Source of the DNA: Thermincola carboxydiphila | GTDB lineage: Bacteria; Bacillota; Thermincolia; Thermincolales; UBA2595 | DNA: 64,000 nucleotides | Assembly (NCBI GenBank): GCA_016841725.1 | Contig: JAENYP010000012.1 | Span: 62,001-126,000 of the forward strand | Direction: 5' to 3' | Shown: positions 12,644 to 24,145 of the stretch, one piece after another | Layout: each line of letters starts with the position of its first letter | Position numbering within the stretch: position 1 is the first letter of the stretch | Notes under the pieces: generated by a model | Told to the model about the DNA's origin: nothing | Databases searched by the model: none | Seen by the model: the letters and a program-made list of their open reading frames with translations, nothing else | Translations under genes and position numbers: made by a program

Positions 12644-13051
12644 TTAATTTAACCCTTGTTCTTTGAGAAAAGGCCCCAGCTTTTTGTCAGTGTTCTGAAT
12701 GTGGTTTACCAGCCAATCCTTAAGAAAATTCATGATTTCTATTGAAAGGGACATCTTCCCATCATTATATCCCTTCTGAAAATCAGAAACCTTGTCCACA
12801 AATTTTTTATGTTCTGACCTATGGGGCAGCATCCATTGGTAGTTATACTTGATCATGAATTTTTCTTCTGTTGAAAAATGGGAAACCGTGTAGTCTACAA
12901 GATCCTGGATTACTTTAGAGACAACCTGTTTCCCCTTTCCGATCATCATGGCATCATGCAGGTCATTGATCATTTTGACAAGGGTTTTGTGCTGTTCATC
13001 AATAAGCCTGATACCGGTAATTAATTTATCATCCCAATTAATGTAAGACAT
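12644..13051 (-). CDS. Bacteriohemerythrin
   Basis: A 135-residue single-domain hemerythrin. The di-iron ligands are all visible: H21, H58 and E62 (HxxxE), H77 and H81 (HxxxH), H117 and D122 (HxxxxD). It should bind O2 and act as a carrier, scavenger or sensor. ATG 13051 is 6 bases after AGGGGAGGA. It is the first gene of a probable two-gene unit with the HD-GYP protein, suggesting oxygen-linked c-di-GMP turnover. This link is inferred from gene order only. Confidence 0.95.
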   Translation of the reverse strand: MSYINWDDKLITGIRLIDEQHKTLVKMINDLHDAMMIGKGKQVVSKVIQDLVDYTVSHFSTEEKFMIKYNYQWMLPHRSEHKKFVDKVSDFQKGYNDGKMSLSIEIMNFLKDWLVNHIQNTDKKLGPFLKEQGLN

Positions 13052-13083
13052 AATCAATCCTCCCCTCTTGTTTTAACCAATTA

Positions 13084-15258: not shown

Positions 15259-16362
15259 ATGAATAGGGAAAGACTGCATAAGTGGTCCCTAAAGACAGCA
15301 ACATTGTTCACTGTACTGCTTGTAATCTTAGCTTTTATGGTTGTGGGCTGCGGGCCCAAGACTGCTCCAACTTCCGGTGAGAAAGCCGCCCCGGCGGGTA
15401 CTTCTACGGGGGCGCAAAACGCTTCCGGTGAGGACAAGGAGGCTCCGGCTAAGGTTAATAATACTACCATAGCCCAAACCCAATGTTCAGAGTGTCACGA
15501 AATGTGGCCTGAAATCGCTACATGGCAGACTTCGGTCCATGCCAAGGTTGACTGTCTGGTGTGCCACGAGGGGTATAACCCGACTCAGAATAAGGCAGCT
15601 CATGACGGTAAGTCATTCCAGAAGCCGATTGCATTACGGAATACTACTGTCAGTGACGAGGCATGTCAAAGCTGCCACGCTATGGAGAACAGGGATGCTA
15701 CACTGCTTCCCGACCTGATCGCACCTCACTCCAAGCACGCTGCAGCCAAGGTTTCATGTCTGGAATGCCACAGGTTTACTACTCACGGGAATATAGCAGA
15801 ACGTAAGGTTACTACCAGAGCAGAATTTGCTGATTATAATCAGTGGAGCCCACAGATGGCCAAGCAGGCTGCACCTGGTGTTCAGCGTCGTCCTAACATG
15901 TTTGTTTGTATTAAATGCCATGAGTCCCGTAGTGTAACTACAAAGTGTTCTGCCTGCCACTACTGGCCTGACAGGGCAACTCTGCCTTCACACGAGAATC
16001 CACAGTGGGGCAGTATTCACGGCAAGACCGGTCGTCAAGATGTTGATAACTGTAGTAAGTGCCACTATGACAAAGAGAGCCAGAAGTTTGCAACTCCTTC
16101 CACAGGAGACAAAATTGCTGACTTTGCAAGGGCAAACAGTTACTGCTACGGCTGTCACCTGAAGCGGCCCACTAACCACGATTCTCAGTGGATGGGTAAA
16201 CACCCGCAGATGGCCAACGAGAAAGGACTGCCCAACTGCTTCGCATGCCATGATAAGAATCAGCCCGGCGCCAATGTAACAGGTACATATTGTAACACCT
16301 GTCACTGGTTCCAGGCACCGGCAGCACCGGCAGCACCGGCAGCAGAGGAAAAGAAAGAATAA
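15259..16362 (+). CDS. Decaheme c-type cytochrome lipoprotein
   Basis: A 367-residue protein with exactly ten CxxCH heme-binding motifs: CSECH, CLVCH, CQSCH, CLECH, CIKCH, CSACH, CSKCH, CYGCH, CFACH and CNTCH. A signal peptide ends in a lipobox-like VVGC near residue 31, so it is probably lipid-anchored on the outer face of the membrane. A low-complexity Ala/Pro/Gly spacer follows (about 35-65), and the C-terminus is an Ala-Pro repeat ending in charged residues. Multiheme lipoproteins in Gram-positive anaerobes carry electrons across the cell wall or to terminal reductases. No partner reductase lies beside it. The site AGGAGGGGAA is 8 bases from ATG 15259. Confidence 0.93.
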   Translation: MNRERLHKWSLKTATLFTVLLVILAFMVVGCGPKTAPTSGEKAAPAGTSTGAQNASGEDKEAPAKVNNTTIAQTQCSECHEMWPEIATWQTSVHAKVDCLVCHEGYNPTQNKAAHDGKSFQKPIALRNTTVSDEACQSCHAMENRDATLLPDLIAPHSKHAAAKVSCLECHRFTTHGNIAERKVTTRAEFADYNQWSPQMAKQAAPGVQRRPNMFVCIKCHESRSVTTKCSACHYWPDRATLPSHENPQWGSIHGKTGRQDVDNCSKCHYDKESQKFATPSTGDKIADFARANSYCYGCHLKRPTNHDSQWMGKHPQMANEKGLPNCFACHDKNQPGANVTGTYCNTCHWFQAPAAPAAPAAEEKKE

Positions 16363-20894: not shown

Positions 20895-22124
20895 TTGCTT
20901 ACAAGGCGGCAGTTTATCAAAACAGCCATGGCAACTACTGCAGCCCTGCAGCTGTCTGAAATCCTGATCCCACATCTGGCTGAAGCCTTTATAGGCAAGA
21001 AGAAACCGCCGGTAATCTGGCTTGAGATGATGACCTGTACAGGTGATTTCCTTTCTGTGGCCAACACCCTGCACCCTGATATGCGGGAGCTTTTATTTGA
21101 TACTATAGACCTCTGCTATAGTAACACAGCAATGGCTGCTGAAGGTGATTTGGCCATTGGTGTCCTTAAAGAGACAGTGGAACGGGAAAAGGGAGAATAT
21201 ATCCTTATTGCAGAAGGGACTGTGCCGTTAAAGGCGGGGGGCAGGTATGGAGCTATCGGCCACCACCCTGATGGCAGCATATTTACTGATCTTGAGGCCA
21301 TCAGGTTTACTGCTCCCAAGGCAAAATATATTATGGCAGTGGGAACCTGTGCTTCCTTTGGCGGTCCATATGCCGCCCATCCTAATCCCTCGGGGTCTGT
21401 GCCGGTCCATAAGGTTGTAGACAGCCAGGTAATAAACGTCCCCGGCTGTCCGGTACACCCGGACTGGGTAGTGGGAACCCTGACCCATTTACTTCTGTAT
21501 GGAGTCCCGGAACTGGATGCATTTAACAGGCCGAAAGTATTCTTCGGCAGAAGGATACATGACTGGTGTCCCCGGCGGCAGCATTTTGATAACGGTGTTT
21601 TTGCCACCGACCCCGGTGAAGAGAAGTGTACCTATAAAATCGGCTGTAAAGGGCCGGTAACCTTTGTTGACTGCCCCACCAGACAGTGGATTGGTGAGCA
21701 TAACAGCTGGCCGGTTGAAGCCAACACACCGTGTATTGGCTGTGTTAGTCCTGATTTTCCGGATGGTATGTCACCCTTTTATGCACATCTGCCTGATATG
21801 AATGTACTGGGGCTGAGGACTACAGCTGATAAAATCGGTAAAGGTGTTGCCGCTGTAACTGCAGCCGGGATAGGGACACATCTTGCGGCCTCTGTGGCAA
21901 CCGGAAGGCTGGGCACAACTCTGATAGATGGAACCCGGCCCAAGAGAGAAGGAGTAAACCGTGATACCAGAAAGCACTCGAAGGACAAAACACGGGAAGT
22001 AGTCTTCCTGCCTGAAGGAAAAATAAAAGGAATTAACCTCAGAAGGTATCATCTGCAGGGAAAAGGCCGCATAAAAGTTTTTATTAACAGGATAAGTTTT
22101 TTTGGTAAGGGGAAAAGAAGGTGA
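20895..22124 (+). CDS. [NiFe] hydrogenase small subunit, Tat-exported, with Asp at the proximal cluster
   Basis: A 409-residue electron-transfer subunit. The Tat signal TRRQFIK (3-9) means it is exported folded with the large subunit. Proximal-cluster ligands are C48, C152 (GTCASFGG) and C185 (PGCPVHPDW), but the usual second Cys of CTGC is Asp51 (CTGD). Distal ligands are H222, C225, C245 and C251; medial ligands are C260, C280 and C283. An extra C74 is present. Asp replacement resembles the 3Cys/1Asp proximal cluster reported for actinobacterial-type hydrogenases. No C-terminal membrane helix is seen. TTG 20895 follows AAGGGG. It overlaps the large subunit by 4 bases. Confidence 0.93.
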   Translation: MLTRRQFIKTAMATTAALQLSEILIPHLAEAFIGKKKPPVIWLEMMTCTGDFLSVANTLHPDMRELLFDTIDLCYSNTAMAAEGDLAIGVLKETVEREKGEYILIAEGTVPLKAGGRYGAIGHHPDGSIFTDLEAIRFTAPKAKYIMAVGTCASFGGPYAAHPNPSGSVPVHKVVDSQVINVPGCPVHPDWVVGTLTHLLLYGVPELDAFNRPKVFFGRRIHDWCPRRQHFDNGVFATDPGEEKCTYKIGCKGPVTFVDCPTRQWIGEHNSWPVEANTPCIGCVSPDFPDGMSPFYAHLPDMNVLGLRTTADKIGKGVAAVTAAGIGTHLAASVATGRLGTTLIDGTRPKREGVNRDTRKHSKDKTREVVFLPEGKIKGINLRRYHLQGKGRIKVFINRISFFGKGKRR

Positions 22125-23539
22125 ATCGTTTGGCAAAACTAATCCGTATCAGCCCGGTAACCCGGATAAACGGGTTTTGGAATCTGGAAGTGGATGTAGA
22201 TGACGGACATATAACAGATGCCCGCAGCAGTGGAATTTTTTTCAGGGGTTTTGAGGAAATCCTTAAAGGAAGGGACCCCAGGGATGCCGCTTACCTTACG
22301 GAGCGCATCTGCGGCATCTGCTCGACCGCTCACGCTATTGCTGCCTCCCATGCTATGGAAGATGCCCTGAAAATTGAAATTTCATCAAATGCAACTTTGC
22401 TGAGAAATCTAAGTTTTGGGGCAGACCTGCTGCAAAACCACCTCAGGCATTTTTACCTGCTGACAGTTTTGGATTTTGTCAGGGGGCCGGAACAGCCGCC
22501 TTTTATACCGAGATATGAAAGCGATTACCGGCTGAATACACACGAGACCGATCGGGTAATGGAAAGTTACCGGCAGCATTTTGATATAGCCCGGATTACA
22601 CACGAAATGGTGACTATTTTCGGCGGTAAAGCGCCGCATCAGCATGGGATTATCCCGGGGGGTGTTACTACCCCTCCCACTGTTGACAGGATTCAGAAAT
22701 TTATGGGCTCACTTGAAACTGTTCTGGAATACATTAACGGAAGGCTTATTCCTGATGCCCAACTGCTGGCCCGAAGATATGATGATTATTTTGAAATCGG
22801 TCGTGGTTATGAGAATCTCCTGGCATATGGCAATTTTCAGGTTCCCGGAAAAAACAGTGAATTTGTGATGCCTTTCGGTGTATACAGTGATGGCAGGATA
22901 GATAAATTTAATCCTGAACGAATCAGGGAACATGTACACTATTCATGGTTTGTCCAGGATAGTCCCAAACATCCGGTTGAAGAGGAAACTAATCCTGAAC
23001 CTGATAAGGAGGGCGCTTATTCCTGGGTCAAGGCTCCGAGGTATGCCGCTAAGCCTTTTGAGACAGGACCCATTGCCCACCTGTGGATGAAAGGGGATTA
23101 CCGCAGAGGTATCTCTACAATGGACAGGATCCTGGCCAGGGTTATGGAAGCCAAAATCGTTGGCAATATGATGAAAGAGTGGCTGAAACAGCTTGAACCG
23201 GGCAAGCCCATTTATCGGCCGTATGAAATGCCGGATAAGGAAGTCGAAGGGGTGGGCTATACGGGGGCCATGAGAGGGGCGCTGGCTCACTGGGTAAGGT
23301 TTAAGGGAAATAAAATACTCCATTACCAGATTGTTACACCTTCAGCCTGGGTTTGCTCCCCAAGGGATGCCGGCGGGATGAGAGGCCCCCTTGAGGAGGC
23401 TCTGGTGGGAACCCCAATTGCTGATACTGATAACCCCATTGAAATCGGGCGGGTAGGCCGTTCCTTTGACCCCTGCCTGGCGTGTGCCGTCCACCTGATA
23501 AAAACAGATGGCAGCAGGCAGAGCCTGCAAATAATGTAA
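22121..23539 (+). CDS. [NiFe] hydrogenase large subunit
   Basis: A 472-residue catalytic subunit that holds the Ni-Fe(CN)2CO site. Nickel ligands are C64 and C67 in RICGIC and C452 and C455 in DPCLACAVH. A 14-residue C-terminal extension follows H458 and is presumably cleaved by a maturation protease, which is not encoded in the window. GTG 22121 overlaps the small-subunit stop (GTGA), so translation is coupled. With the cytochrome b downstream this should be an uptake hydrogenase feeding electrons to quinone, an inference from subunit makeup. Confidence 0.96.
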   Translation: MNRLAKLIRISPVTRINGFWNLEVDVDDGHITDARSSGIFFRGFEEILKGRDPRDAAYLTERICGICSTAHAIAASHAMEDALKIEISSNATLLRNLSFGADLLQNHLRHFYLLTVLDFVRGPEQPPFIPRYESDYRLNTHETDRVMESYRQHFDIARITHEMVTIFGGKAPHQHGIIPGGVTTPPTVDRIQKFMGSLETVLEYINGRLIPDAQLLARRYDDYFEIGRGYENLLAYGNFQVPGKNSEFVMPFGVYSDGRIDKFNPERIREHVHYSWFVQDSPKHPVEEETNPEPDKEGAYSWVKAPRYAAKPFETGPIAHLWMKGDYRRGISTMDRILARVMEAKIVGNMMKEWLKQLEPGKPIYRPYEMPDKEVEGVGYTGAMRGALAHWVRFKGNKILHYQIVTPSAWVCSPRDAGGMRGPLEEALVGTPIADTDNPIEIGRVGRSFDPCLACAVHLIKTDGSRQSLQIM

Positions 23540-23566: not shown

Positions 23567-24145
23567 TTGGAAGAAAAGGTATATATCCAATCCCTGCCCA
23601 ACAGGCTCTTTCACTGGAGCTCATTTGTCATGGTGACAATGCTTTTGATATCAGGATTTTATATATCCCACCCTGTTAACCTGGGGGATGCTTATGATCT
23701 TGATATCGCTGTCTTTGTACAAACAGCCGCCGCTTTTTTACAGTCAGGCATATTTTTTGCCTGGGTATACCACCACATGGTCACAGGCGCTTACCAGGAT
23801 ATCAGGTTCAGGTGGCGGGATGCCGCTGATTTCAGGGGATTGCTCAAGTACTACTTTTTCATGGAAAAAAAGCCTCCGGTCCATGGCAAATATAATGCCG
23901 GGCAGAGGCTTGTTTATACTTCCTGGTTTTTTGTTTTTATATTCTTGTTTATTACCGGCCTGATACTGTATTCTGTCAATTTCGGATATGTGCTCCGGTT
24001 TCCTGTCGCGATTCAAAAGGTGCGGTTTTACCACTTCCTGGGCGCATTATGGTTCCTGGGTACTGTCCCGCTCCATATCTACCTTGTTCTGACTGAGGAT
24101 CCGGCAAAACTGCAGGCCATGTTCACCGGTTGGGTCAGGAGGTAA
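23567..24145 (+). CDS. Hydrogenase cytochrome b subunit (cyt b561 fold)
   Basis: A 192-residue membrane protein with four predicted helices (about 15-35, 50-72, 113-135, 150-175). Histidines suited to bind two b hemes occur in FHWSSF (near 16), VYHHMV (near 68), FYHFLG (near 154) and PLHIYL (near 168). It would anchor the hydrogenase and pass electrons to the quinone pool. It begins at TTG 23567, 27 bases after the large subunit. Convergent with a histidine kinase that ends 1 base away. Confidence 0.88.
   Translation: MEEKVYIQSLPNRLFHWSSFVMVTMLLISGFYISHPVNLGDAYDLDIAVFVQTAAAFLQSGIFFAWVYHHMVTGAYQDIRFRWRDAADFRGLLKYYFFMEKKPPVHGKYNAGQRLVYTSWFFVFIFLFITGLILYSVNFGYVLRFPVAIQKVRFYHFLGALWFLGTVPLHIYLVLTEDPAKLQAMFTGWVRR

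Follow-up and report, generated by a model that had tools for sequence, protein, structure and literature searches.

The window analyzed here, a 64,000-nucleotide stretch of a Thermincola carboxydiphila contig, contains a gene for a [NiFe] hydrogenase small subunit in which Asp replaces the second Cys of the proximal cluster motif. The replacement is real but typical of the clade of Bacillota enzymes to which the protein belongs, and greater interest attaches to the clade, with its natural series of ligands, than to the single gene. It is probable, although by no means certain, that the gene belongs to a membrane-anchored respiratory H2-uptake [NiFe] hydrogenase whose proximal 3Cys/1Asp cluster tunes potential or stability, as a trait of the clade and not as an oxygen-tolerance device.

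Asp replaces the second proximal Cys of the small subunit

The small-subunit gene (20895–22124, plus strand; TTG start) encodes 409 aa and was assigned by its translation, profile matches and alignment to solved small subunits. The protein scored 294.6 bits against TIGR00391 (hydrogenase small subunit; cut-off 179.5) and was above the cut-offs of PF14720 (106.6 bits) and PF01058. The first-pass annotation had described a CTGD motif (C48 and D51) with C152 and C185 retained, and the translation contains exactly these residues. The motif is encoded by TGT ACA GGT GAT at 21036–21047, and the codons of C152 and C185, which the alignment identifies as the third and fourth proximal ligands, are located at 21348–21350 and 21447–21449, all on the plus strand. 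Residues 2–338 were alignable to the solved small subunits by phmmer, and CTGD stood opposite CTGC with zero gaps. Thus, the alignment that had been proposed as a check pairs D51 with the second proximal Cys of the solved enzymes. A sequencing error at D51 is very unlikely, because its codon (GAT, 21045–21047) is two base changes away from TGT and the same Asp is common to close relatives; the residue is conserved in the genus.

All other iron–sulfur ligands are retained. The region of the distal (H222, C225, C245, C251) and medial (C260, P273, C280, C283) clusters, recognized from conserved columns, extends from 21558 to 21743 on the plus strand, and the Pro at position 273 implies that the medial cluster is of the [3Fe-4S] type. 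The Tat signal reported at first pass was found as the motif TRRQFIK, though the PF10518 score of 20.2 was slightly short of the cut-off of 22.7. A C-terminal hydrophobic segment (approximately residues 316–334) is followed by a basic tail. The extra cysteine that had been pointed out, C74, is present but unremarkable; it is retained in the nearest relative only, and Arg, His or Tyr occurs in close relatives. C74 was ruled out as an additional ligand since the position is not conserved.

The operon encodes a group 1 uptake hydrogenase

The large-subunit gene (22121–23539, plus strand) shares its first 4 bases with the small-subunit gene and was assigned from its open reading frame, PF00374, NF033181 and motifs. 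Its product matched NF033181 with 528 bits, below the cut-off of 600, and carries both Ni-ligand motifs, L1 RICGICS and L2 DPCLACAVH, as well as a C-terminal extension past the His. The cytochrome b subunit, the expected partner on the quinone side, is encoded at 23567–24145 (plus strand). It matched PF01292 with 87 bits, in agreement with the cytochrome b partner claimed previously, and TIGR02125 with 87 bits, under the cut-off of that profile. The three genes are also adjacent in five other loci (L001, L003, L004, L006, L007), and conservation of the genes flanking the operon is limited to near relatives, one of which is recorded as a Thermincola ferriacetica MAG (L001). The TIGR00391/PF14720 small subunit, the L1 RxCGxC and L2 DPCxxC motifs, and the Tat signal together with a membrane partner are the features of a group 1 [NiFe] uptake hydrogenase. 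The Ni ligands have been lost from the large subunit of a paralogous operon of this genome, which might suggest that the complex in the window is likewise catalytically degenerate and has lost its hydrogenase function. This is extremely improbable, as the large subunit in the window retains RICGIC in L1, DPCLAC in L2 and the extension past the His, and HypA is encoded in the source genome.

The first-pass annotation had placed the enzyme beside hemerythrin-bearing, oxygen-related functions. A single-domain hemerythrin gene adjoining an HD-GYP-like gene is indeed present in the window (12644–13057, minus strand), but it is ~8 kb off, on the opposite strand and outside the hydrogenase operon, and the link is one of proximity only. 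A gene for a lipoprotein-like multihaem c-type cytochrome (15259–16362, plus strand) lies ~4.5 kb upstream of the hydrogenase and is kept in L001 and L003. An AmmeMemoRadiSam gene pair (TIGR04336 and TIGR04337; 17286–19711, plus strand) is located directly upstream of the hydrogenase and is kept in near relatives.

Comparison with known hydrogenase groups

The best-scoring solved relatives of the small subunit were group 1a [NiFeSe]/[NiFe] enzymes (Desulfovibrio HysB, PDB 2wpn; 1cc1), and, as a further resemblance to this group, the large subunit was closest to NF033181. In contrast to the window enzyme, group 1a has proximal CTGC and medial Cys, and it was placed outside the window clade; the group 1a sequences among the 13 references fell in an unresolved fork of the tree. 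Group 1d (HyaA, HoxK) shares the Tat signal, the C-terminal anchor, the cytochrome b and the medial Pro with the window enzyme but has CTCC and extra cysteines, whereas the window enzyme has CTGD and CASFGG. At the places aligned with the two supernumerary cysteines of the [4Fe-3S] cluster, the window enzyme has G50 and G157.

An actinobacterial-type proximal Asp had been proposed, and D51 does occupy the same alignment column as the Asp of HofK from Cupriavidus necator (group 1h, PDB 5aa5), which has CDGD instead of CTGD. In other respects the two enzymes differ. HofK has a medial Cys instead of Pro, and it scored 124 bits with the window protein in phmmer, far below the 229 bits of group 1a. 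Group 1h enzymes have neither a Tat signal nor a C-terminal anchor (PMC5364354), whereas the window enzyme has the Tat motif and the C-terminal hydrophobic segment. The L1 and L2 motifs of group 1h are TSRICGICGDNH and SFDPCLPCGVH (PMC5364354), and the window enzyme departs from them with LTERICGICSTAH and RSFDPCLACAVH. Grouping of HofK with the clade enzymes was not rejected in an AU test (p-AU 0.644), and D51 and the HofK Asp may therefore share an origin.

The position is reported to be Asp in the Ralstonia group 1h enzyme, Asn or Asp in group 1f, and Asn in group 2a (PMC5364354). Group 1f, compared by this description only, thus shows the same kind of replacement. Group 2a (Huc type), compared on fetched database records, resembles the window clade in its non-Cys residue (Asn) but is a cytosolic family that scored 98 bits and is placed far from it in the tree. 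A Sulfurimonas (Campylobacterota) small subunit with CAGN also has Asn at this position but is located elsewhere in the tree. Since the HofK Asp and the Asn residues of group 2a and Sulfurimonas fall in the D51 column, the replacement is of a known kind. No report on the Bacillota clade or on Glu at this position was found in the part of the literature covered.

Asp, Asn and Glu interchange in a Bacillota clade

Small subunits were gathered from 398 sampled genomes of the phylum and from 80 further regions. After identical rows were dropped, the alignment comprised 126 rows, of which 113 were non-reference small subunits (Bacillota) and 13 were references. The motif columns were removed before tree building, and two carriers with an unreadable motif (G003 and G385) were excluded from the counts. 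It was revealed that 69 of the 113 non-reference proteins form one clade (SH-aLRT 99), none of which has Cys at the D51 position. The position is Asp in 35 members, Asn in 25 and Glu in two (CTGE in L041 and L045), and the motif is shifted in the remaining seven; as the proteins were chosen for their similarity to that of the window, these are not the residue frequencies of the phylum. The 62 members with an unshifted motif have D, N or E exclusively, and never Ala, Gly, Ser or Pro.

At least 14 changes are needed to account for the interchange of Asp, Asn and Glu inside the clade. Even in the subclade nearest to the window protein, L002 has Asn and its sister L004 has Asp. Asp and Asn are easily exchanged because a single base transition suffices, and selection evidently permits the exchange. 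The Asp is thus not the rarity that it had seemed to be; since no member of the clade has Cys, D51 is ordinary for its branch and is no sign of oxygen tolerance. Membership of a standard oxygen-sensitive clade with this Asp had been named at first pass as a refuting outcome. As far as can be judged from sequence, the window protein does belong to a clade that normally carries the residue, and the outcome would apply in full if the clade is oxygen-sensitive.

The medial Pro was present in 65 of the 69 small subunits with a non-Cys proximal position and in 3 of the 44 with Cys, whereas 40 of these 44 had a medial Cys. The correlation is striking, but no functional coupling of the non-Cys proximal position with the medial Pro is claimed, as the pattern follows clade lines and only 2–3 independent pairs exist, none of which differs in the second trait. 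The same reservation applies to CGICS instead of CGVC in L1 of the large subunit (61 of 68).

In six small subunits without a Tat signal (L078, L080, L081, L085, L089, L090), ETNDSGDNN was found where the others have CxGD, so that the first Cys is also replaced. Two cysteines are left for the proximal site in these DSGD-type proteins, with the register uncertain by one residue. L083, a sister of the DSGD-type rows, reads CSGDNN.

Proposed role of the proximal cluster

The operon product would be an exported, membrane-anchored enzyme of an anaerobic Thermincola-like bacterium. H2 would be split at the NiFe site, and electrons would pass from the proximal cluster (C48, C152, C185 and D51) through the medial [3Fe-4S] cluster and the distal His/Cys3 [4Fe-4S] cluster to the cytochrome b and the menaquinone pool. 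Most likely, D51 binds the fourth iron of a [4Fe-4S] cluster in the manner of the HofK Asp, and this non-thiolate ligand may tune the potential or the stability of the cluster. Sequence, alignment, operon and clade distribution were observed directly, whereas the ligation by D51, the direction of the electron flow and the redox effect are inferred from them. The structure predicted by AlphaFold for the small subunit and eight relatives (mean pLDDT 49.5) was too poor and was not used.

A serious rival, although one that we regard as rather unlikely, is that the proximal cluster is an open [3Fe-4S] cluster without D51 among its ligands. The three residues Asp, Asn and Glu would then be merely tolerated after the loss of the Cys, in a manner comparable to Huc of group 2a. 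The frequent interchange of the three residues and the pairing of an Asn form with an Asp form as sisters in the closest subclade are consistent with this, as is group 2a itself, which has Asn at the position and to which Huc, with its three [3Fe-4S] clusters, belongs (PMC10017518). The free exchange of Asp and Asn also suggests that the site can do without a strong carboxylate ligand, and the fourth iron may thus be loosely bound, or missing as in Huc, in which all clusters are [3Fe-4S]. On the other hand, the restriction to D, N and E among the 62 unshifted members speaks for retention of an oxygen donor, and the interchange would then mean that the charge of the donor matters little. These enzymes use Pro at their medial [3Fe-4S] sites, and for HofK, which has Asp, coordination of the proximal [4Fe4S] cluster by this residue has been reported (PMC7174314). 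Ligation of a [4Fe-4S] cluster by D51 is hence the reading that we retain.

The proximal Asp alone is probably not a mark of oxygen tolerance

The first-pass annotation had compared the 3Cys/1Asp cluster with that of the oxygen-insensitive actinobacterial-type enzymes, implying that the window enzyme tolerates oxygen. The shared HofK column of D51 and the joint clade that the AU test left unrejected would be compatible with an oxygen-insensitive hydrogenase of this kind. However, Asn replaces Asp in near relatives, the medial residue is Pro where HofK has Cys, and there are no extra cysteines for a [4Fe-3S] cluster. In addition, no gene of the haem-copper-oxidase family (PF00115) was found in 51 of the 63 genomes in which a non-Cys small subunit was verified, and the single PF00115 hit in the source genome matched subunit B of nitric oxide reductase (E = 5.9e-110). 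The argument for the oxygen insensitivity of group 1h combines the Asp ligation with a narrow gas tunnel (PMC7174314), and the authors of the Huc study credit narrow gas channels (PMC10017518). Moreover, the isolated group 1h enzyme of SolV, which has the Asp, seemed to be hampered by oxygen in the absence of H2 (PMC7174314). The oxygen-insensitive interpretation is thus improbable, and the oxygen tolerance implied at first pass is not borne out: Asp and Asn swap freely, most carriers are without a haem-copper-oxidase-family gene, and nothing in the sequence evidence points to oxygen tolerance of the window enzyme.

Although the proximal Asp has been connected with the oxygen insensitivity of group 1h, an apparently anaerobic clade with Asp, Asn or Glu argues that Asp alone is no mark of oxygen tolerance and is unsuitable as a genomic marker. 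A tentative scenario, which has somewhat less than an even chance of being correct, is that the thiolate ligand was lost once in the Bacillota clade and that the position then drifted among Asp, Asn and Glu, one subclade acquiring DSGD-N in place of CxxC. An evolvable oxygen-donor position would thereby tune the proximal potential in anaerobes, independently of oxygen tolerance. The natural D/N/E series in near-identical enzymes would permit a clean test of the effect of the ligand on potential, bias and oxygen response.

Paralogous and related hydrogenases

The source genome encodes four small subunits, namely the window copy (CTGD), C7 (CSGN, without a Tat signal), C14 (CNGC) and C25 (CTGC). 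Asn thus occurs at the D51 position in a paralogue of the same genome. The C14 operon (G000:C14; loci L011, L016, L125) encodes a hydrogenase-like small subunit with every cysteine. Its large subunit (ORF L016:1108–2463) has lost the CxxC of L1 (QRCSGMDF) and ends right after RSF, before the expected DPCxxC, and the large subunit is followed by a cytochrome b and HypA. Homologues with the same loss were found in six related genomes, and the operon therefore seems to encode a conserved complex that derives from a hydrogenase but has no Ni ligands.

Four group 1 large subunits (L068, L076, L111, L117) have an in-frame TGA exactly at the second cysteine of L1 (RICGV-TGA-PxGHA). The TGA is a candidate selenocysteine codon, located in L1 and not in L2. 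SelB is encoded in all four genomes, and a fold just 3' of the TGA was stable in one of the two cases tested (z = −2.4 and 0.0).
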